From NCBI GenBank assembly GCA_016223135.1, contig JACRPQ010000009.1, positions 1 to 64,000 of the forward strand: a stretch of DNA of 64,000 nt, read 5' to 3'. Each line of letters opens with the position of its first letter. The stretch's first letter is position 1. Origin of the DNA: Chloroflexota bacterium (lineage in GTDB: Bacteria > Chloroflexota > Anaerolineae > Anaerolineales > Villigracilaceae). The position numbers and the translations under genes were made by a program. The notes beneath the pieces are model-generated. The model had not been told where the DNA came from. It saw only the letters and a list, made by a program, of their open reading frames with translations, and did not search any database. Positions 51,084 through 61,366 of the stretch are shown here, in pieces.

Positions 51084-52733
51084 TTATTTGCGTTTTGCGG
51101 TTTTTTTGCCAGCCTTTTTGACCGGCTTCTTGGCGGCTTTGGCTGCCTTTTTGACGGGAGCGGGTTTGATGAGCGTTTGGATTTGTTCGTGCATGTAGAG
51201 CTGGACATAGTAGTAGCCGCCGCCATTCTTGCCGGTGGCGCCGGAGCCTTTCCAGCCGCCGAAGGGTTGGAAGCCGGGCCACGCGCCGGTGGTGGCGCCT
51301 TGCGGACGGTTGGCGTAGGTGACGCCCGCTTCGATGTTGTCGAAGAACCACTTGACTTCCTTGGCGTTGCCGTAGAAGCCGGCGGTCAGCCCGTAGTTGA
51401 CGCTGTTGGCGATTTGCATGGCTTCGTCGAGGCTGCTGACCTTGCCAATGGTGGTGATGGGCAGGAACATTTCGTGCTTCCACAGGCGGTGGTCGTAGGG
51501 CAGATCGGTGACGAGGGTGGGTTCGCAGAAGTAGCCCTTGTCGAACATGCCGCCGGTCTTTACGTGACCGCCGGTCAGGAAGTTGCCGCCTGCCTGGTTG
51601 ATTTCTTCGCAGAAATTCTTGAAGTCGTTGTAGGCGTTCTGGTTGATGACGGGACCGAGGTAGGTGGTGCGTTCAGTCGGGTCGCCAATGACGAGTTTTT
51701 CGGTCTTTGCTTTGAGCAGGGCAACCAGTTCATCGTAAACCGGTTCTTCCACCAGCACGCGCGAGGCGGCGGAGCATTTCTGTCCCTGCAAGCCAAACGC
51801 CGAGCGGACGATGCCGGTCGAGGCGTCTTCCAAGTTGGCGTTGCGGGAGACGATGGCGGGGTTCTTGCCGCCGAGTTCCAGCACCACCGGGCGGACGTAG
51901 TTGCGGTTGGCGAGGTCGCGGTACATCTTCATGCCCACATCGAAGGAACCGGTGAAGGTGGCGCCATCCAGTTCGGGGCTGTCCACCAGCGCCTGTCCCA
52001 GCGTGGAGCCGGGACCGGTCACAAAGTTGAACACGCCGGGCGGGAAGCCGGCGTCGCGCAGGCATTCAGCGTAGAGGCGGACAATCCAGGCGGTGTCGGT
52101 GGCAGGCTTGAGGACGACGGTGTTGCCCGCCACGAGAGCGGCTCCGACGGGACCTCCGCTCAAGGCGAAGGGGAAGTTGAACGGCGAGACCACCAGCCAC
52201 ACGCCGTAGGGCTTTAGCACCGAGATGTTCGTCGCGTCGTAACCGACCAGCGGGTCCTTGCCCATCTCGCGGATGAAGCCGTTATTTTCCTCCATCATCT
52301 GCGCCGACCAGTACATCAAGTCGGCGGTTTCCTGCACGTCGCCGAGCGATTCCATGCGGTTTTTGCCGACTTCCAGCGCCATCGCCGCGCCGAGTTCGAA
52401 GATGCGCTTCTCGATCAGCGCCGCCGCCTTGCGCACCAATTTGACGCGGGTCTTCCAGGGTGTGCGGCTCCAGGCGGGGAACGCTTTGCGGGCGGCTTCC
52501 ATCGCCATTTGCGCGTGCGAGGCGTTGCCTTTCTGCATCACCGCCAGCACCCAGTCGGTATTGACCGGCGAGCGGTCTTCATATTTCTCGTCCGCGAAGA
52601 CATCCTGCCCGTCAATGAACATGCCGTATTCCTTGCCCAGGTTGTCCTTGAGTTTGGCGACAGCCTTGTCAAAGCCTTTGTGCAGTTCTTCGGGCGGATT
52701 GAACATCGTGGCGTAAGTAAGTTTGAAAGCCAT
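51084..52733 (-). CDS. pruA: L-glutamate gamma-semialdehyde dehydrogenase with lysine-rich tail
   Basis: 549 residues. Aldehyde dehydrogenase with SPFNFPFALSGGPVGAAL, LELGGKNPAIVS (Glu) and GQKCSAASRVLVEEPVYDEL (nucleophile Cys, about 319), the PruA pattern. It oxidises the semialdehyde to glutamate in proline breakdown. The final 25 residues (from PAPVKKAAKAAKKPVKK) are Lys/Ala/Pro-rich like histone H1 tails, unusual for this family. No proline dehydrogenase is nearby. Strong AAGGAGG site. Confidence 0.9.
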   Translation of the reverse strand: MAFKLTYATMFNPPEELHKGFDKAVAKLKDNLGKEYGMFIDGQDVFADEKYEDRSPVNTDWVLAVMQKGNASHAQMAMEAARKAFPAWSRTPWKTRVKLVRKAAALIEKRIFELGAAMALEVGKNRMESLGDVQETADLMYWSAQMMEENNGFIREMGKDPLVGYDATNISVLKPYGVWLVVSPFNFPFALSGGPVGAALVAGNTVVLKPATDTAWIVRLYAECLRDAGFPPGVFNFVTGPGSTLGQALVDSPELDGATFTGSFDVGMKMYRDLANRNYVRPVVLELGGKNPAIVSRNANLEDASTGIVRSAFGLQGQKCSAASRVLVEEPVYDELVALLKAKTEKLVIGDPTERTTYLGPVINQNAYNDFKNFCEEINQAGGNFLTGGHVKTGGMFDKGYFCEPTLVTDLPYDHRLWKHEMFLPITTIGKVSSLDEAMQIANSVNYGLTAGFYGNAKEVKWFFDNIEAGVTYANRPQGATTGAWPGFQPFGGWKGSGATGKNGGGYYYVQLYMHEQIQTLIKPAPVKKAAKAAKKPVKKAGKKTAKRK

Positions 52734-52750
52734 GCTTCCTCCTTGTGAAG

Positions 52751-52797
52751 TCTGATAGTCTGAAAGTCTGATAGTCTTATAGACTTATAGTCTGACT
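52751..52797 (+). repeat. R3 repeat array before pruA
   Basis: Units of TCTGATAGTC, TGAAAGTCTGATAGTC and TTATAGACTTATAGTC. The array lies upstream of pruA on the minus strand. Related to 20689-20730. Confidence 0.6.
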
Positions 52798-52929: not shown

Positions 52930-53475
52930 ATGAAATCTCGCCTCTTTCCGACCCTTATCCTGATTGCCCTTCTATTGGCTGCGTGCGCCCCGGCGGCTTC
53001 CCCTGCTCCCAGCGTGGATCAGCCGTCGGTTCAGGCGCCCGCCTCCCCCGTCGTAGTGGAAGCGAGCGCCACGCCCCTTCCCAGCGAAACGGCGTCTCTT
53101 CCCCCCGAATCCGCCGCACCGACGCCTCTCCCCATCGCCACCTCGCGCGGTCCCGACCTGCACGCCACCGACCCGGCGACGGTCAACCTGGCTTCGGGGC
53201 AGTTGCAGTTTGTGGAGTTTTTCCGCTTTACCTGAGGCACCTGCCGCGCCATGGCGCCCATGGTTCATGGGCTCGAAGCGAAATATTTTGGCAAAATTAA
53301 TTTTGTCTATCTGGATGCCGACGACCCTGCCACCCGTCCGTTTCAACAGCAACTTGGGTTTTACTACCAGCCGGAGGTCTATCTGCTGGATGGAGACGGC
53401 AATGTATTGAAAAAGTGGGTGGGTTTTACGACAGAGCAGGAATTTGAAGAGGAATTTGCAAAATACGTGGAATAG
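52930..53475 (+). CDS. Thioredoxin-like lipoprotein, candidate selenoprotein (in-frame TGA)
   Basis: 181 residues if the TGA at 53233-53235 is read as selenocysteine (residue 102). Signal peptide with lipobox LAAC, a Pro/Ser-rich linker, then a thioredoxin fold: VEFF-RFT, U-G-T-C, RAMAPMVHGLEAKY, INFVYLDADD and a cis-Pro at YYQPEVYLLDGDG. The TGA replaces the first Cys of the CxxC motif, while the same frame continues intact to a normal end. AAAGGA precedes the ATG. The alternative is a nonsense mutation. It faces the cytochrome b fusion gene. Confidence 0.75.
53256..53272 (+). promoter_or_regulatory. SECIS-like hairpin after the in-frame TGA
   Basis: GCCCATG (53256-53262) pairs perfectly with CATGGGC (53266-53272) around the loop GTT. 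The loop begins 28 bases after the TGA and starts with G, in line with what is known of bacterial SECIS elements, which lie within the coding region soon after the UGA. A nearby GCGCCATGGCGC could compete as a fold. Confidence 0.5.
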
Positions 53476-53522: not shown

Positions 53523-55604
53523 TCATCGCACCACAAACGCATCCCTTGCTTCGTCATACAGCAGGAGCATGACCTTTCCCTTGTCAAATACCACTTGATT
53601 GGAAAACGCAAGACGATACTCGTCCGAATCATCCTTGACCCACACCTCCACTTGATGCGCGCCCGGTTCGATTTCCAGGAACTCCAGCGCCGAGATGCGG
53701 CCGTTGCCGCTGATTCCCGAAGGTTTGTAGGTTTCATCGAGCATCGTCATGCTGTCCACCAGGACGCGCACACTCATCGGATAATGCTCGCCGCCGAAAA
53801 TCTTCGCGGGGTCAGCGCCTTCGGGCAGCGCCACCCCTTCGGGAATATCCGCCAGTTGCACCTTCCCCTTTGCGTCCACTGCCACCCGTAGAGCGGACTT
53901 CTCCGCAGCAGACATGCCCGCCTTCACATCCAACGGCAGCGCCAAGGCGAACAGACCCAACAACAGCGCGGTTCCAACCAGTGCGCTTACAAACGAAGGC
54001 ACAAGTTTGTTGCGTCCCTTCACGGGCGGCAGGAGCGGCGCGGTTTTGTTTGCCTGCCCGCGCTCGCTGTGCAATTCGTCCAAAAATTTCGCCACCGTCC
54101 CCGCATCGCCGGGTGTGACCTCCAGCCAGTGCAGTCCCTTCGTCAGCAAGGCGGGACGCAGATGCAGGCGGTTCAAAATCCAATGCGCGTCCTCGCGATT
54201 CAGAGCATCGTCATATGGATGTGACAGGATGACGACATCGCGCGCGCCGTCGCCGTTGAGCAGGGACTTGATCCACTCGATATTGACCGCGCCTACGCTC
54301 GGCAGCACCGCCGTGATGACGCGCGCCGCTTCATCCCCGCCCCAGCCTGTTACTGTGATATGAGGATGCTCCCTCATCCCCTGCCCTTCTTCCTGTGGGA
54401 GAAGGGTGATAGGCAATCCGCCCAATGCCTGCGCGCGTTGACTGGCAAATAGCACTGTGACGGTATGTCCCTCCTTCACCTCGCGGTGTACTGCGCCTCT
54501 CAGGGCGTTGAAGGTTTGCTCGCTGTTATAGCCTCCCTGCAAATGAATCGCATCGGTGGGACAGGCGCCCACGCAAATGCCGCATCCCGTACACTGCGCG
54601 GCGTTGATGACCGCCAGTTTCTGGTAGCCCGAGTTGTCGTTTCGTTGAACCATGCGGATGGCGTCATACGGACATTCGGCGTAGCAGAGAACGCATCCCG
54701 TACACTTGGGATCGGTCACGAGAGCAGGTCCGAGGTCCCGCCCCGAGGCGAGCCAAGGGAGCAGGAACAGGCTTCCGCCGATGAGGATCGCCAGTCCCCA
54801 GAAAATCACGTTGCCCAGTTTGTCTATCAACGGCAGAAAGCCGAGATAGTAGGCGTCCATCGGCACGGATTGAATCAACGTGGAAAGGTCCGCCGGCGCG
54901 AAGGATTGCACGGGTTTGATGAGCGAGAGAACGAGGAGACCGACGGCGGCTTGAATGCTTACCCAGCGCGGCGACCACCAGCGGGCGCGCGAGAGGCGCA
55001 GACCGTGAATGTAAATGCCGAGGAACCCGATGAGCGGAAGAAAGACATGCAGGAAGAGGATGATGACAAAGTTGGAAAACGTGCGCGACTCGATGTCTGC
55101 CGCGATATAGGTGAGACCCGATGAACCTGCCAGCGTTTCCATCATGTATTCGGTCATCCATTGCGCGCGCTGATCCCAGACCAGCCAATAGCCCATCGTG
55201 CCGACCAGCCAGGTGACTGCCAACATAATCCAGCCGCTTGTCCATGCCAGCCAGCGCTGACCCCAGAACTTGTCGCTGACGAGTATCTTGACGAGGTGCA
55301 GGATGGTGAGCAGGATCATCGCGTCGGCGGCGTAGCGGTGCACGCTGCGCATGAGCGAGCCGAACCAATTGGAATCAATTTTTTCGACGGTGGCGTATGC
55401 CACATCCAAACCGGGGCGGTAGATGACCGTGAGGTATGCGCCTGTGGCGATGAGGACGACCAGCATGAAGATGGTCAGCGTGCCGAGGTGATACAACGGA
55501 TTGAAATCCGAGTGGGCGAATCGGTTGATGGAGCCTTCAATGAAAGCCCAGGCTTTTTCAAGTGTGCGTAAGAAACGTCGTTCGGTGTAGAGTTTTTTGG
55601 TCAT
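53523..55604 (-). CDS. Cytochrome b - 2x[4Fe-4S] ferredoxin - MvhD-like fusion protein
   Basis: 693 residues from the ATG at 55604. Residues 1-285 are a cytochrome-b-type membrane part with heme His in HRYAADAMILLTILHLVKIL and FLHVFLPLIGFLGIYIHGL. Two ferredoxin clusters follow, CTGCVLCYAECP (about 299-310) and CTGCGICVGACP (about 337-348). Then a region like the small iron-sulfur subunit MvhD (VEWIKSLLNGDGARDVVIL-like, without its Cys), a membrane helix near 485, and an outer domain. It probably passes electrons between quinones and a low-potential or other carrier. Contains an in-frame R8 repeat. Confidence 0.78.
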   Translation of the reverse strand: MTKKLYTERRFLRTLEKAWAFIEGSINRFAHSDFNPLYHLGTLTIFMLVVLIATGAYLTVIYRPGLDVAYATVEKIDSNWFGSLMRSVHRYAADAMILLTILHLVKILVSDKFWGQRWLAWTSGWIMLAVTWLVGTMGYWLVWDQRAQWMTEYMMETLAGSSGLTYIAADIESRTFSNFVIILFLHVFLPLIGFLGIYIHGLRLSRARWWSPRWVSIQAAVGLLVLSLIKPVQSFAPADLSTLIQSVPMDAYYLGFLPLIDKLGNVIFWGLAILIGGSLFLLPWLASGRDLGPALVTDPKCTGCVLCYAECPYDAIRMVQRNDNSGYQKLAVINAAQCTGCGICVGACPTDAIHLQGGYNSEQTFNALRGAVHREVKEGHTVTVLFASQRAQALGGLPITLLPQEEGQGMREHPHITVTGWGGDEAARVITAVLPSVGAVNIEWIKSLLNGDGARDVVILSHPYDDALNREDAHWILNRLHLRPALLTKGLHWLEVTPGDAGTVAKFLDELHSERGQANKTAPLLPPVKGRNKLVPSFVSALVGTALLLGLFALALPLDVKAGMSAAEKSALRVAVDAKGKVQLADIPEGVALPEGADPAKIFGGEHYPMSVRVLVDSMTMLDETYKPSGISGNGRISALEFLEIEPGAHQVEVWVKDDSDEYRLAFSNQVVFDKGKVMLLLYDEARDAFVVR
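54367..54412 (-). repeat. In-frame R8 repeat inside the cytochrome b fusion gene
   Basis: CCCTTCTTCC and GGGAGAAGGG are inverted with one mismatch; the flank CCCTCATCCCCTG matches the R8 copy in the copper ATPase gene. Translated it reads LLPQEEGQGMRE (about residues 398-412), just after the ferredoxin domain. Confidence 0.6.
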
Positions 55605-55627
55605 CAATGATTTTCCAGAAGATTTTT

Positions 55628-55790
55628 TTCACCACGAAGGTCACAAAGTACACGAAGGAAAGAAACCACGAAGTTCTATTTTTACTAACCACCCGACACT
55701 TTTGTTTCAGGGCACAGATGAACGCTGACTTACGCTGATTTAAGTTGTTTTTTTTCTGCGTTTATCTGCGTTTTTCAGCGTCCCATTTGA
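55628..55790 (+). repeat. Repeat-filled gap (R6 and a CACGAAGG element)
   Basis: CACCACGAAGGTCACAAAG and TACACGAAGG come first; then ACACTTTTGTTTCAGG to CTTACGCTGATTTAAG (55696-55744) is the inverted copy of 24044-24093; then TCTGCGTTTATCTGCG. No gene is visible in 55608-55848. Confidence 0.6.
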
Positions 55791-55848
55791 AACTGTCAGG
55801 TCGCTAGTTTTTTTACCTTTGAGATCGTTGTGCCCTTTGTGTTTAGAT

Positions 55849-58284
55849 TTATTCCTCATCCAGCAAGGGATATCTGTTCATCCGCGTGGCGTTGACTGTG
55901 ACGAAGATACTGCTCATCACCATTGCCAGCGCGGCGAAGACGGGCTGCATCACTCCTGCCATCGCCAGCCCCACGCCGACGATGTTATAGATGAACGCCC
56001 AGCCGAGATTTTCCCGCACGCGGCGCATGGCTGTTTTCGATAGGTCGAACAGCCATGGGATTGCGCGCAGGTCGTCGCGCATCAACACCACATCGGCGGC
56101 GGTGCGCGCCACGTCTGTGCCGTGATTCATTGCCAGCCCGATTGTGGAGGCGGCGAGCGCGGGTCCGTCGTTGATGCCATCGCCGATCATGGCAGTATGC
56201 CCGACCAGATGCGACATCTTCCCATCGGGGCTTAACCCTGCGTGAACGGGAATGCCCAGCGCCTGTTCCCACTTCCTGCCTGCTTGTGCCTCGTCGCCTG
56301 TCAACACGCCGAGACTGAGTCCGCGAGCCCTCAACTGATTCAACACATCCCTCGCCTCCTCGCGGACCGTCTCGCCGAGCCCCACCAATCCCTGCACCTG
56401 CCCATCCCACCCCGCAAAGACAACCACCTGCCCTGCCTCTCTCATGGTTTCCGCGCGTTGATTTATCTCGTTTGAAATTGTGAAGCCCTGCTGTGTGAGC
56501 AAGCGTTCGCTGCCAATGACAACGTGTAATTGGTTGGTTATTGGTAATTCGGCGGTGACGCCCATGCCAGGGATGACTTTGAAGGATACAGGCTTGATGA
56601 GTTCAACCCGATTTGCTTTGGCAAACTCGACAATGGCTTTGGCAAGCGGATGTTCCGATTCATTTTCCACAGAGCCGATAATTTGAAGAACGGCTTTTTC
56701 CCTCACCCCTAACCCCTCTCCCCACGGGAGAGGGGGATTCTGGCTCCCTTCTCCCCTGGGGAGAAGGGCCGGGGATGAGGGCACAAACACCTCCCTCACC
56801 CGCATCGGCAATTTGGTCAACGTGCCTGTCTTGTCGAAGAAGACCTTCTCCACCTTTGCCAGCCGCTCCAATGCCGACGTGCTCCGCAGGAGGATGCCCG
56901 ACTCGGCGGCGCGACCGAGCGAGAGCCACAACGTCAATGGGGTTGCCAGCCCCAGCGCGCAAGGACAGGCAATCAACAGCACCGATAGCGCCACGAGCAA
57001 TCCCTCTTCGACGCCTGCTTGATGATTCCAAAACAGGAATGCAATCGCCGCCAGACTCAACGCAATGGGAGTCATCCACGCCGACAACTTGTCCGCCAGG
57101 CGTTCGAGCGGAGAGCGATTCCACAGCGCCTGATGCAGTAAACGGCTAATCTGCCCGGCAGTAGTGGAGTCGCCGACAGCGGTGGCGATGACCTCGAAAC
57201 TGCCGTCCAGGCTCAAGGTCCCAGCCTGAACCGCATCGCCGGGACGGTGAGTCACGGGACGAGGCTCCCCCGTCAGCAGGGATTTGTCCACGTCTCCTTC
57301 GCCACTGGCGATGAGTCCATCCACAGGGAACTTTTCGCCGGGGCGCACGCGCACGCGCTGACCTGCGCGCAAGTCTGAAACGCGAACGACTTTATCGCCT
57401 TCGGGGGTGACAACCGTTGCCTCATCGGGAATCTGTTCGAGCAGGCGCGTCACTGCCTGATTGCTGGATTTGTGTGCCTGCATTTCGAGCCAGCGCCCAA
57501 TTGAAACCAAAAAGATGAGCATGGTTGCCGTGTCGAAATACAAACCGCCATGCCCCACGATTAGATTACGGATCGATAATCCAAACGCGGAAAACGTGCC
57601 GATGGTGATAAGCGTGTGGATGTTGGGCTGCCCGCGCAGCAAACTCGCCAAGCCTGCCCGCAAAATCGGCAACCCAAGCAGGATCAAAACAGGCAGGCTG
57701 GTGACGAGCATCATCACTTGAAAGAAATCCACCAGCGGCTGCGATTCGGGCGTTGCCCAGCCCATGATTTCACGGGCGTAAATCCCCGCGCCTACGATCA
57801 TGTCGTGCAGCACCATCACGCCGCCAATCAGCAGACGCGTGAAAAACGTCTCTTCCTCATCGTATGGTTTTTCATTGGGAAGAGCGGCTTTGTAGCCGAG
57901 CGAACGGATACGCTTTTTTAGTGATTGGTAATTGGTAATTTTTGGATCGTAGGTGATATTGGCTTGCCCCTGGATGAAACTGACTTCCGCATCCACCACG
58001 CCTTTTGTCCGTTTGAGTTGTTCGCCCACCAGCCACGCGCAGGAGGAACACCACATGCCGCTGAGGCCCAATGTGACGTTCTGCGCTTCTCCCCGGACCT
58101 CGGAACGGGTGGCGGTTTCAGACGCCTTCTGCGGCGCTTCGGCTAGGAGCGCCGCCACCTCGCGGCACGAGGGACAGCAGAACACATCCCCGCGTTGATT
58201 GGTGAGGGGATGCAGAGTCGTCAGCCCGCACACCGAACAGGTGACGAGGGAACGTGAGGAGGAGGCGGTGGTTGCGAGGGTCAT
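55849..58284 (-). CDS. Copper-translocating P1B ATPase, CcoI/FixI-type
   Basis: 811 residues. N-terminal Cys cluster TCSVCGLTTL...FCCPSC, an HMA domain with MWCSSC, then transport core motifs SLLTGEP, CPCALGLATP, DKTGTLT and MIGDGINDGPAL. The N-terminal Cys cluster plus HMA is the layout of CcoI ATPases that supply copper for heme-copper oxidases, and this gene lies among them. Three in-frame repeat insertions are present. No clear Shine-Dalgarno; R2 repeats lie upstream. Confidence 0.87.
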   Translation of the reverse strand: MTLATTASSSRSLVTCSVCGLTTLHPLTNQRGDVFCCPSCREVAALLAEAPQKASETATRSEVRGEAQNVTLGLSGMWCSSCAWLVGEQLKRTKGVVDAEVSFIQGQANITYDPKITNYQSLKKRIRSLGYKAALPNEKPYDEEETFFTRLLIGGVMVLHDMIVGAGIYAREIMGWATPESQPLVDFFQVMMLVTSLPVLILLGLPILRAGLASLLRGQPNIHTLITIGTFSAFGLSIRNLIVGHGGLYFDTATMLIFLVSIGRWLEMQAHKSSNQAVTRLLEQIPDEATVVTPEGDKVVRVSDLRAGQRVRVRPGEKFPVDGLIASGEGDVDKSLLTGEPRPVTHRPGDAVQAGTLSLDGSFEVIATAVGDSTTAGQISRLLHQALWNRSPLERLADKLSAWMTPIALSLAAIAFLFWNHQAGVEEGLLVALSVLLIACPCALGLATPLTLWLSLGRAAESGILLRSTSALERLAKVEKVFFDKTGTLTKLPMRVREVFVPSSPALLPRGEGSQNPPLPWGEGLGVREKAVLQIIGSVENESEHPLAKAIVEFAKANRVELIKPVSFKVIPGMGVTAELPITNQLHVVIGSERLLTQQGFTISNEINQRAETMREAGQVVVFAGWDGQVQGLVGLGETVREEARDVLNQLRARGLSLGVLTGDEAQAGRKWEQALGIPVHAGLSPDGKMSHLVGHTAMIGDGINDGPALAASTIGLAMNHGTDVARTAADVVLMRDDLRAIPWLFDLSKTAMRRVRENLGWAFIYNIVGVGLAMAGVMQPVFAALAMVMSSIFVTVNATRMNRYPLLDEE
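56526..56552 (-). repeat. In-frame R1 repeat in the copper ATPase gene
   Basis: TAATTGGTTGGTTATTGGTA is an R1-type sequence. In the protein it reads ELPITNNQLH-like (about residues 577-586), between GVTA and VVIGSERLL, where related ATPases have a short Val-Asp-Gly turn. Confidence 0.55.
56698..56786 (-). repeat. In-frame double R8 repeat in the copper ATPase gene
   Basis: Two palindromes stand head to head: CCCCTCTCCCCACGGGAGAG and CCCTTCTCCCCTGGGGAGAA. They encode about 29 residues (about 499-528) with two LLPRGEG / LPWGEGLGVRE segments between REVFVPS and KAVLQIIGSVE. The frame is kept. Confidence 0.7.
57918..57945 (-). repeat. In-frame R1 repeat in the HMA domain of the copper ATPase
   Basis: TTAGTGATTGGTAATTGGTA plus ATTTTT encodes KITNYQSL (about residues 113-121), in the loop between strand 3 and the last helix of the HMA domain (before KKRIRSLGYKA). 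Confidence 0.55.
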
Positions 58285-58310
58285 ATTTGTTCCGAGTTGC
58301 GTATTCCGTG

Positions 58311-58366
58311 TTTACTTGTGTACTTGTGTACTTGTGTACCTGTATACCTGTGTACCTGTATACTTC
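58311..58366 (+). repeat. R2 repeat array between two minus-strand genes
   Basis: TTTACTTGTGTACTTGTGTA is followed by CCTGTATACCTGTGTACCTG; three GTGTACTT units turn into TACCTG units. It lies upstream of the ATPase gene. Confidence 0.65.
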
Positions 58367-58371
58367 TCCAT

Positions 58372-59043
58372 CTACCAAAGCATGAACGAGCCAAGCATAA
58401 AATGCTCCATCCAACCCAGCGCAGCGAACCCGCGCATGGCGAACTGGAAGCCGAAGATCATCATCACAAGGGAAGCGAGGCTTCTTGACCAGTTTCTTGA
58501 AACCGTTTTTTGCGCGAGCCATTTCACGGCGAACAGACTCGGTACAGTGGCGGCGCCAAACACAATCATGTTCAACGCGCCTTGTAACGCGCTGGCTGAG
58601 GCAATGGCAGGTATCAATGCGGTAAGGACGAGCCCGCAGGGGAGCAAGCCCCATATCATGCCTGCTGCAAACGGCGCGGGGGCGCGCAGTCCGCGCATGG
58701 TTTGTCCCCATTTGGCGACGATGGTTGATAAGAATAATTCAGGCGATTTGGCAAGTCCAATGAAAGCGAACGCCATGTAAAAGGCGAGGACGGCGAAAAG
58801 CATCGAGAGCAGTCCCTGCAGGCGCGGCAGGGGGGTGGAGAAAAGGCTCAGGGTCTCGCCGAGCAAGCCAAAGGTCAAGCCGAGAAGCGCATACGTGAAC
58901 AAACGTCCCGCATGGGCAAGCATCCAGGAGCGGTTGTTTCCCTGAAAGGCGGGTTGGCGGTCGAGAAGGATAATCACGGCGCTGCACATCCCCACGCAGT
59001 GACCGAGGCTTCCGAGCAATCCCAAAAGAAAAGATGTCAGCAT
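58372..59043 (-). CDS. TauE/SafE-like membrane protein (heme-copper assembly type)
   Basis: 223 residues, about six hydrophobic helices. LGSLGHCVGMCSAVIILL has the His-Cys-x-Gly-Met-Cys motif of the family found beside CcoI genes, and GLLPCGLVLTALIPAIASA gives the second repeat. Probably involved in copper or thiol transfer for oxidase assembly; that is by association. Next to the ATPase gene on one side and the heme-copper subunit I gene on the other. Confidence 0.8.
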   Translation of the reverse strand: MLTSFLLGLLGSLGHCVGMCSAVIILLDRQPAFQGNNRSWMLAHAGRLFTYALLGLTFGLLGETLSLFSTPLPRLQGLLSMLFAVLAFYMAFAFIGLAKSPELFLSTIVAKWGQTMRGLRAPAPFAAGMIWGLLPCGLVLTALIPAIASASALQGALNMIVFGAATVPSLFAVKWLAQKTVSRNWSRSLASLVMMIFGFQFAMRGFAALGWMEHFMLGSFMLW

Positions 59044-59069
59044 GATAAACCGCTAAAGCCAAGCAAGGA

Positions 59070-59104
59070 AAGACTTCGGAAGTCTACAAGACTTCCGAAG
59101 TCTT
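59070..59104. terminator. Long perfect hairpin after heme-copper subunit I
   Basis: AAGACTTCGGAAGTCT (59070-59085) pairs perfectly with 59089-59104, loop ACA. On the minus strand it follows the subunit I stop and can end or weaken transcription into the assembly genes. T-run is short (CTT), so strength is uncertain. Confidence 0.6.
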
Positions 59105-59111
59105 CACAAAC

Positions 59112-60836
59112 CTATCGAATGAACCACGTCCTGCCCAACAGCCACCAGTTGGTGAGGTAATAGACTGCGAACCAGACGAGGAAGGCAAAGACGAGGACGA
59201 GTGTGCCGCGCGGCTGGTTCTGCTTGTCCTCCATTTGCTGGTCGGTCAGTTTGGTGGACTCAAGCAGGGGATTGTGCGTGCCAGCCGTGAGGAGCAGGCT
59301 GCTCGCTTCCAAACGCGGACCCGTCAGGATGGATACCAGCACGACGGTCACGTACATGATGCCGCCAGCGACTGCAATCAACGCGCCAATGCCCAGGATG
59401 GCGAGCGTGAGGTTGACGGTGCCGGGAATTGCGCCGGAGAAGGTGATGTCCCAGTTGCGGCGGGAGACGCCCTGCAGACCGCTGGTAATCATGCCGAGGG
59501 AGACCAGCATGGTGCCAAAGCCGAAGACGTAGGGCTGCCAGGTTGCCCACTTCTTGAGTTTCAATTCCTTACGGAAGATGAGCGGGATGACGTAGTAGGT
59601 GAAGCCCATGAAGGCGGTGGTCGTGCCGCCGACAACGGTGGCATGGAAGTGACCGGGCAGGCGCAGGGTGTTGTGCGCCAGCATGTTGATTTGTTCCGTG
59701 CCGATGGTGACGCCGGTCACGCCGCCGATCCAGCCGAACAGGATCATGGACATGACCAGCGCGCCGAAGCCCGGTTCGTTCCATGGTCCATTGCGGAGCC
59801 AGCCAAACAGACCTTTGCGATAGCCTTTGGCGCGCAATGCCACTTCCATCGCGGCGGGGATCGAGAAAGCGTGCATCATTGAACCCAGCACGGCGAGGTA
59901 CATGGCGTAGGAGGTGTTGACGGCTTTCCAGCCGAAGGTCAGACCGGGGTCAACCAGCAGGTGATGCGCCGAGCCGAGGTTGATGAAGAACAGGTACAGG
60001 ATGAAGGCGAGACGCGAGAACTTTTCGTTGAGCGGGCGGATGCCGACGGTCATCTGCGCCAGCGCATACCAGATGGCGACCATGGCGGCAAGGTTGACCT
60101 GCTGCGCGGGGTGTCCGAACCCCCAGAAGAAGTTGCGGTAGATGCCGGGATCGAGGTCCATCAGCCCAAGCGACCAGAAAAAGGCAGGTACGATCGCCGC
60201 CGCGCCTTCGAGCAGGGTGTAGGTGGCAAGAATGGCGGCGGTCATCAAGCCGAAGACCACGAGCGGAAGCGAACCCTCGAAGCGTTTCTCGCGTTTGGCA
60301 ACCACGATGTTGATGAAGAACGTGATGACCGCAATCAACGCGCCGACCGCGAACAGGATGTAACTCAGATAGAACAGCGGATGCGCTTTCATTGGCACGT
60401 AGGCGGTGAAGGTCACGATGCTGTTGGTGTCGAACAGCACTACGAAGTTTGCCATCAGCCCGCCGACGGTCATCAGGATGAAGCCGAGCCAGGCAAGTTT
60501 GGGCGCGGCGTGACGCGCGTTCAACAGCACGGTCGAGCCGAAGTGCAAGCCCGCCATCTCGAAGAACACGATCCACGCCACCAGCATGTCAATGCCGTGC
60601 AGCGTGAGCAGGCGGTAGAACCAGAGCGCATCGAGCAAATGGATCGCCTGCCAGCGGGTCAACGCAATCAACAACGCAGCGATGCCGCCCAGCACCAGAC
60701 ACACGACAGCCATTACGGCGTTGGCGATGACCAGCCGCTCAGTGTGCATGTCCACTTTGAGCGTGGTGACGGGGCAGGCGCGATACTCGTCCTTGGCGCC
60801 TGCTGCCCAGGGGAAGGTGGGGGAAAGTGCAGACAT
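59112..60836 (-). CDS. Heme-copper reductase subunit I, B-type; Gln at the active-site Tyr position (NO-reductase-like)
   Basis: 574 residues, about 13 hydrophobic helices. Low-spin heme His80 (LTLHG) and His398, high-spin heme His396 (LPGHFHATV), CuB ligands His242 (GFGHPAQQVN), His291 and His292 (SAHHLLVDPG). The ba3 oxidases have HPIVY, with Tyr cross-linked to His; here the Tyr place is Gln246. Loss of that Tyr is a feature of non-canonical NO reductases in this superfamily, so NO reduction is more likely than O2 reduction. Start 12 bases after subunit II. Confidence 0.85.
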   Translation of the reverse strand: MSALSPTFPWAAGAKDEYRACPVTTLKVDMHTERLVIANAVMAVVCLVLGGIAALLIALTRWQAIHLLDALWFYRLLTLHGIDMLVAWIVFFEMAGLHFGSTVLLNARHAAPKLAWLGFILMTVGGLMANFVVLFDTNSIVTFTAYVPMKAHPLFYLSYILFAVGALIAVITFFINIVVAKREKRFEGSLPLVVFGLMTAAILATYTLLEGAAAIVPAFFWSLGLMDLDPGIYRNFFWGFGHPAQQVNLAAMVAIWYALAQMTVGIRPLNEKFSRLAFILYLFFINLGSAHHLLVDPGLTFGWKAVNTSYAMYLAVLGSMMHAFSIPAAMEVALRAKGYRKGLFGWLRNGPWNEPGFGALVMSMILFGWIGGVTGVTIGTEQINMLAHNTLRLPGHFHATVVGGTTTAFMGFTYYVIPLIFRKELKLKKWATWQPYVFGFGTMLVSLGMITSGLQGVSRRNWDITFSGAIPGTVNLTLAILGIGALIAVAGGIMYVTVVLVSILTGPRLEASSLLLTAGTHNPLLESTKLTDQQMEDKQNQPRGTLVLVFAFLVWFAVYYLTNWWLLGRTWFIR

Positions 60837-60847
60837 TACATCGCCTC

Positions 60848-61366
60848 CTATTTCACAATAATTTTGCCGATCATCGTGTGATGACCCAGAAAACAGTATT
60901 CATTGCATACAATGGTAAATTCGCCCGTAGTGGTCGGTGTGATGGTGGCGACATAATCGTACCCCGGCACCACTTGTAAATTGATGTTCACAGGCTGGAG
61001 CGAAAAGCCGTGGTTGTAATCCATCGAGGAAACATGCAGACGGTATTCCTTGCCCTTTTCCAATTGCAAAATGGGATACCATTGCCAGGTGCTGGCGCGC
61101 AGGTACACGTCACTGCCGGGCGGCGGTGCGACAATGGGAACCCCGTTCTCCTCGCCGACCTGATACGTCGCCACAAACTCATTTACCTTGGCGGCATAAT
61201 CCTGCGGCGTGGTGCGGTACGTTTCCGTCGGTACGTTCTGTTTCCCCATGAAATACCAAAGCGGCATCATAATCGTCAGGAAAATGCACCAGACCAATGC
61301 CACTGTCAGCCAGGTCTTCTCCAGCCGACCCATCGGCTTCCACCAGGTTTGTTCAGGAGCCAACAT
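60848..61366 (-). CDS. Heme-copper reductase subunit II with CuA site
   Basis: 172 residues. One N-terminal membrane helix (about 18-40), then a cupredoxin domain. All CuA ligands are present: His119 (DYNHGFS), Cys154, Cys158, His162 and Met165 (CNEYCFLGHHTM), with Glu156 as carbonyl ligand. It takes electrons from a cytochrome c, perhaps that at 61964. GGAGAAGAGAT-type site upstream. Confidence 0.93.
   Translation of the reverse strand: MLAPEQTWWKPMGRLEKTWLTVALVWCIFLTIMMPLWYFMGKQNVPTETYRTTPQDYAAKVNEFVATYQVGEENGVPIVAPPPGSDVYLRASTWQWYPILQLEKGKEYRLHVSSMDYNHGFSLQPVNINLQVVPGYDYVATITPTTTGEFTIVCNEYCFLGHHTMIGKIIVK

Follow-up and report, generated by a model that had tools for sequence, protein, structure and literature searches.

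A predicted exported thioredoxin-like selenoprotein in Anaerolineae (Chloroflexota)

The window, the whole 64,000-nucleotide stretch of Chloroflexota DNA that was analysed, carries a short plus-strand gene between a divergent aldehyde dehydrogenase and a convergent respiratory cluster (Table 1). When TGA is read as selenocysteine (Sec, U), the only inner stop in this frame is a TGA at residue 102, which takes the place of the first Cys in a thioredoxin CxxC motif, as an initial annotation of the stretch had pointed out. The upstream features described there are also in place. The ATG start is preceded by AAAGGAC, and a hydrophobic signal peptide with the lipobox LAAC, recognised by eye and with a similar stretch in alignment A1, is followed by a linker. 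By the lipobox rule, Cys19 is the predicted lipid-bearing residue. Because standard gene calling stops at TGA, a protein of this kind is probably prone to losing its thioredoxin half in annotation and to appearing as a short orphan lipoprotein.

Table 1. Features of the candidate selenoprotein locus and its surroundings (window coordinates).
Feature	Position	Strand	Remarks
Divergent aldehyde dehydrogenase	51084-52733	-	Nearest NCBIfam models are L-glutamate gamma-semialdehyde dehydrogenases, below cut-offs
Thioredoxin-like selenolipoprotein gene (predicted)	52930-53475	+	181 residues, Sec at 102, stop TAG
Hydrophobic signal peptide, lipobox LAAC (residues 16-19)	52930-52986	+	By eye; similar stretch in alignment A1
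Low-complexity Pro/Ala/Thr-rich linker, then conserved TSRGP-LHATDP stretch	52987-53196	+	Mostly modelled with low confidence
Thioredoxin domain, about residues 90-179	53197-53466	+	PF00085, pLDDT, Foldseek
In-frame TGA, putatively read as selenocysteine	53233-53235	+	First residue of U-G-T-C, in FFRFT-U-GTCRAMAPM
Candidate bacterial SECIS hairpin GCCCATG-GTT-CATGGGC	53256-53272	+	7-bp stem, loop GTT
Pro148 codon, cis-Pro position	53371-53373	+	Invariant in alignments A1 and A3
Convergent respiratory cluster	53523-61366	-	Cytochrome b/ferredoxin protein, copper-type P-ATPase, DsbD_2 protein, COX1, subunit-II-like protein
DsbD_2 membrane protein	58372-59043	-	GHCVGMC and GLLPCG motifs; between copper-type P-ATPase and oxidase
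Oxidase subunit-II-like protein	60848-61366	-	CNEYCFLGHHTM CuA-type motif, by eye

Profile and structure predictions bear out the complete thioredoxin fold, with its cis-Pro, that had been proposed behind the TGA. With the TGA read as Cys, Pfam PF00085 matches residues 90-174 (E 3.3e-8; 33.9 bits against a gathering cut-off of 23.5). AlphaFold2, run on alignment A3 (16 rows), gave a mean pLDDT of 81.3 and a pTM of 0.62; ten-residue pLDDT means exceed 90 throughout residues 81-180, and the signal and linker are modelled with low confidence. Foldseek listed 50 PDB matches (best E 2.6e-8, TM by target 0.80), all of them thioredoxins, alone or in fusions and complexes, and the 60 matches listed by a PDB profile search comprise thioredoxins and proteins of the protein disulfide-isomerase type. 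All 20 aligned sequences of A1 share Pro148, the proline at the cis-Pro position. The protein passes the cut-off of no NCBIfam model, and the nearest profiles are of thioredoxin and DsbE type. Scores were 34.6 for TIGR01068 (cytoplasmic TrxA; cut-off 96.8), 28.9 for TIGR00385 (cut-off 123.15) and 13.1 for NF002854 (cut-off 170). NF041057 scored 22.8 against a cut-off of 190, aligning with residues 9-107, mostly signal and linker, and the protein is not a member of that family.

The initial annotation had called for a search of the genome for selA, selB, selC and selD, and all four components are encoded. The tRNA-Sec has the anticodon TCA (UCA) according to ARAGORN, selB lies at G000:C17:140921-142804, and selA and selD are likewise present. 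Across the 18 genomes of the genus, the present one included, tRNA-Sec (RF01852 search), selA and selD were each found over cut-off in 18/18, and selB in 17/18, the exception being G011, given as 88% complete. Other long tRNAs fell below the RF01852 cut-off and were excluded. In controls with 14 known genomes, the searches for tRNA-Sec, selB and selD matched in every genome and passed the cut-off in 5, 2 and 2, respectively, and the selA search matched in 4 and passed it in 1. Since sub-cut-off matches are thus widespread, only matches over cut-off were counted. The selD frame itself (G000:C1:218290-219225 in the present genome) holds one TGA in all 18 genomes of the genus, which makes Sec decoding look like an established trait of the genus.

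At 45-92% identity, nine relatives from a contig search carry TGA at the codon of residue 102 without exception; among them, L003-L006 are probably the same records as the genus genomes G010, G006, G008 and G014. Within the genus, 14 of 18 genomes carry the gene, each with the TGA (14/14), and weak matches only were found in G001, G007, G013 and the 80%-complete G015. Genus matches confined to the signal or linker (e.g. G000:C6) were set aside as low-complexity. A Cys codon (TGC or TGT) at 53233 had been named as evidence against recoding, and the other genomes, too, show TGA there. A broken homologous frame had likewise been named; none was seen, save in G003, where the gene (locus L024) is interrupted by a run of N and the TGA is visible. 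Three pieces of L024, one with the TGA and two without TGA or Cys codon, were dropped from the comparisons.

At the family level, 104 genomes that are at least 90% complete were searched; 72 of them contain a match to the gene at E 1e-12, and the other 32 are without one. The best match in each of the 72 has one TGA and no other stop, the position of the codon having been extracted for a subset of them. One of the 72, G787, is a weak match (E 7.5e-14), and four stop-free second copies occur in the family (G769, G775, G776 and G791). In the 54 distinct TGA sequences extracted, the TGA is aligned with the first Cys of CxxC. The gene is also present in many other families of Anaerolineae. A class search with a broader profile matched 345/396 genomes, a figure that includes ordinary thioredoxins and gives no family count, and a phylum search with a stricter profile matched 26/400, some of which are again ordinary thioredoxins. 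The protein is dispensable, given the 32 family genomes without a match, which include G001, G007 and G013 of the same genus, where the Sec machinery is present.

Behind the TGA, the predicted 7-bp hairpin with a G-first loop begins after 20 bases, as the initial annotation stated, and the loop is reached after 27. The published bacterial SECIS model gives a loop of 3-9 nt, a stem of 4-16 bp, a G in the first two loop positions and 16-37 nt from UGA to loop (PMC13188914). The hairpin in the window (7 bp, GUU, 27 nt) lies within these limits for loop, stem, G and spacing. Taken alone, it is not significant. Its fold z-scores are -0.48 and -0.89, and among 20000 synonymous re-draws encoding the same peptide, 5183 yield a stem of at least 7 bp within the SECIS spacing and loop limits. 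Hairpin strength as the sole evidence was therefore ruled out, and an Rfam scan of the window, with no match at gathering, was of no help for bacterial SECIS here. As the single hairpin is no better than chance, the case for recoding rests on comparison.

This comparison used a gap-free alignment of the 54 distinct TGA sequences found in the loci collected, with 500 shuffles that ignore relatedness. In total, 92.3% of stem cells are paired, against a shuffled mean of 83.3 (0/500 as high), and double, compensatory changes occur in 6/7 pairs (1/500 as high). The covariation score, 0.277, compares with 0.139 for the shuffles (reached by 0/500), and versions slid along the alignment score at most 0.162. 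One of five whole-structure covariation measures, further pair types, did not stand out (8 against 7.2 in shuffles, 191/500). Although the shuffles take no account of kinship, pair 27/37 (CG in 41, UA in 12 and UG in 1) and pair 28/36 (AU in 40 and GC in 14) both change in rows that are separated on the tree. In 22/54 sequences the innermost pair is not formed, which leaves a five-base loop with G second, and all 54 have G as the first of the three bases in the centre of the loop.

The reading frame behind the TGA is under purifying, protein-level constraint. Its 77 codons give a dN/dS of 0.029 against L003 and 0.04-0.19 against eight other sequences, dS being computable in 9 of the 17 comparisons; these figures are rough, because most comparisons have an almost saturated dS and the SECIS holds down synonymous change. 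Inner stops behind the TGA are absent in all 17. Together with the covarying hairpin, the low dN/dS argues strongly against a true stop, in which the gene would be a pseudogene or the TGA a sequencing error, and the downstream part would be reinitiated at an in-frame ATG or dead. In-frame ATGs do occur behind the TGA and the hairpin lacks significance of its own, yet the TGA recurs in 54 distinct sequences with Cys in others, and reinitiation would give a thioredoxin without its first catalytic residue and first strand. A true stop is accordingly very improbable. Decoding of the TGA as a different residue (Trp or Gly), by an altered genetic code or a suppressor tRNA, has a very small probability. 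No point was found in its support, the genome has a tRNA-Sec with UCA, TGA ends 3 of 12 checked neighbouring reading frames and so also serves as a stop locally, and the homologues without TGA carry TGC or TGT in 11/11 rows. On this comparative evidence, the gene almost certainly encodes a genuine selenoprotein with Sec at residue 102.

These 11 rows supply the Cys homologues that the initial annotation had suggested looking for. Three of them, L027, L079 and L080, have CGPC and resemble ordinary thioredoxins, and three lie side by side in one genome, within about 1.5 kb (L153, G647:C2:364347-365861). The 54 Sec and 11 Cys rows do not measure how common the two forms are, since the loci are the best matches listed for a profile built largely from Sec rows. 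The clearest case is L115 (G618), a Cys form that is the sister of the Sec form L074 (G291) with support 100/99, the two genomes sharing the same gene order around the gene (loci L139 and L135). As the tree is built on few columns and requires the Sec/Cys label to change four times, only this pair is named as firm. L115 retains 5/7 paired hairpin positions, a SECIS remnant. Six paired positions are kept by the Cys form L082, on a long branch, five by L132, with a break, and three each by L081 and L075. SECIS remnants behind Cys codons have earlier been reported in other families (PMC1794560). The remnant in L115 has the look of one left after a recent change from Sec to Cys.

Recoding signals, machinery, conservation and predicted fold are all given by sequence evidence, and from them we infer Sec insertion itself, export, anchoring, the direction of redox transfer, the donor and the substrates, along the following lines. 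UGA codon 102 would be decoded as selenocysteine, with the SECIS hairpin starting 20 nt downstream recruiting SelB with Sec-tRNA(UCA). The product is very probably exported, and its N-terminal lipid would hold it on the outer face of the cytoplasmic membrane. There, the linker would carry the thioredoxin domain, whose U-G-T-C site may reduce disulfides, Sec102 attacking the disulfide and Cys105 resolving. Recharge would probably come from a DsbD/CcdA-type membrane reductase of the genome, in which five DsbD_TM matches over cut-off were found; the DsbD_2 protein of the window is a possible electron donor. A general role as an extracytoplasmic disulfide reductase is favoured, with some reserve.

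Several known systems are close to the predicted protein. The name Rcas_1661 comes from Roseiflexus castenholzii, also a Chloroflexota. TlpA, ResA and DsbE share a membrane-anchored, outward-facing thioredoxin fold with CxxC; the present protein is alike in its predicted outward-facing, anchored fold and in its weak matches to TIGR00385 and NF002854, and differs in having Sec rather than Cys and in profile scores far below the cut-offs. UxxC thioredoxin-like selenoproteins have long been known (PMC1088965, PMC2398784, PMC9312934, PMC13188914), and the groups described in these sources include Trx (PF00085) and the 'Trx-like 1-3' of the Sargasso and GOS surveys, Trx-like 1 being COG0526. These have in common with the present protein a Trx-type domain, Sec as the first residue of CxxC, Cys homologues and a SECIS just behind the TGA; by contrast, the present protein has a putative lipobox signal and a long linker and passes no NCBIfam thioredoxin cut-off. 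The family NF041057, Rcas_1661 thioredoxin-like (seleno)lipoprotein, is a lipoprotein with a thioredoxin-like fold and UxxC, judging from the NCBIfam title and a table in a 2026 review, where it is entered as DsbG-like; the same features are predicted for the present protein. SaoT (NF040730) is also a UxxC thioredoxin-like selenoprotein in that review, yet NF040730 is not among the 12 models matched by the selenolipoprotein at E 0.1.

The open-access literature yielded no earlier report of this Anaerolineae protein among the matches listed; one of the sources, PMC5736913, discusses Sec in formate dehydrogenases. Since UxxC thioredoxin-like selenoproteins are a well-known kind, the epithet 'unusual' in the initial annotation was an overstatement. 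Its central proposal of an exported selenocysteine thioredoxin, on the other hand, is strongly supported by the Sec machinery, the conserved TGA, the covarying SECIS, the Sec/Cys pairs and the thioredoxin fold. What is new here is most likely a lineage-typical exported selenothioredoxin.

The surroundings of the gene are conserved on one side. The aldehyde dehydrogenase adjoins it in all 21 family loci compared (18 further loci and L007, L009 and L010), and L011, L102 and L103 are without it. This upstream divergent block of aldehyde dehydrogenase and CoA-transferase is most simply explained by vertical synteny. On the downstream side, tblastn with four query proteins of the cluster (53523-60836) found none beside the gene in the 21 family loci, apart from a P-ATPase in G002, within the roughly 2-10 kb seen downstream (9 kb in the nearest relative, G010); the gene at 60848-61366 was not a query. 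The subunit-II-like protein encoded there matched no Pfam or NCBIfam model at the thresholds used. Downstream genes otherwise vary and include ferritin-like, ECF-transporter-like, MFS-like and other genes, as read from the sequences rather than from profiles. Operon logic was set aside as a functional clue, because these genes differ between genomes, and no conserved operon partner pointing to a substrate or donor was found in the loci compared. Short-period tandem arrays (8 and 16 base) were also observed in the window, at 52749-52795 beside the aldehyde dehydrogenase gene and at 58309-58365 upstream of the P-ATPase gene.

The respiratory neighbours raise the question of a more specialised function, which the initial annotation had sought in the maturation of cytochrome c or CuA. 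TlpA of Bradyrhizobium reduces ScoI and COX II, according to PMC6696091. A TlpA-like protein dedicated to reducing the copper chaperone SCO and the CuA cysteines in cytochrome oxidase subunit II would fit the COX1 gene, the subunit-II-like gene with its CuA-type motif, the copper-type P-ATPase and the DsbD_2 protein within 8 kb in the window. A P-ATPase also lies directly downstream of the gene in G002, where it is 31% identical, and in G136, outside the family. Among 22 distant loci scanned, SCO-type cluster members occur within 4.5 kb in four (L136, L137, L138 and L141) and PCuAC-type members near the gene in three of these, all in genus g20 of family f5. In L138, the only distant SCO locus profiled, Pfam gives PCuAC and two SCO1-SenC proteins, but PCuAC and the nearer SCO are on the opposite strand to the thioredoxin gene, and the second SCO, on the same strand, is more than 3 kb off. 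The other distant loci have no SCO- or PCuAC-type neighbour among the recurring clusters, and, as noted for the family loci, the oxidase cluster is not found beside the gene.

Co-occurrence is similarly loose. COX1 was found in 69 of the 72 family genomes with the gene and 24 of the 32 without it (Fisher p 0.003), and SCO in 68/72 and 22/32 (p 0.0009), both tests ignoring kinship. Exceptions run in both directions: G764 and G765, and likewise the weakly matching G787, have the gene and no COX1 or SCO match, G776 has the gene without an SCO match, and G001, G007 and G013 have COX1 and SCO without the gene. Given these exceptions (G764 and G765 on one side; G001, G007 and G013 on the other), a strict role in CuA maturation is unlikely, and with respiratory neighbours that are not conserved the earlier suggestion of such a redox partner is weak. 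A looser tie of the selenothioredoxin to aerobic life is possible. A further alternative is an oxidase, an isomerase or a peroxide-linked electron donor rather than a general reductase. Thioredoxin folds are known to serve all these roles, and T101, which replaces the Trp usual before the motif (alignment A1), may shift the redox potential. The nearest NCBIfam profiles, however, are thioredoxin and DsbE-type, and no peroxiredoxin partner was noticed in the neighbourhoods, which were profiled in part, so that these roles, although somewhat easier to entertain than the SCO/CuA one, are doubtful too.

Anaerolineae are a large class with few cultured members. Because the gene recurs in 72/104 family genomes and across many other families, these bacteria may as a rule carry out selenium redox chemistry with exported proteins. 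A bolder proposal is that the extracytoplasmic selenothioredoxin is a class-wide part of envelope redox control in Anaerolineae that serves SCO/CuA assembly, with some lineages swapping Sec for Cys while a SECIS remnant lingers. This is less probable still than the dedicated SCO/CuA role; if true, it would tie selenium supply to aerobic respiration in Anaerolineae. The Sec/Cys pair of G291 and G618 offers a clean case of what advantage Sec confers on an extracytoplasmic thioredoxin.

Another thioredoxin-like protein with an in-frame TGA, divergent from the first, was also observed, in L029, L030 and L083 and in G012:C341 and G017:C131. It occurs in several family members that also carry the first one. 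Its motif is U-M-E-C in L029 and L030 and U-R-D-C in L083, and the innermost hairpin pair in L029 is C-G, not G-C.
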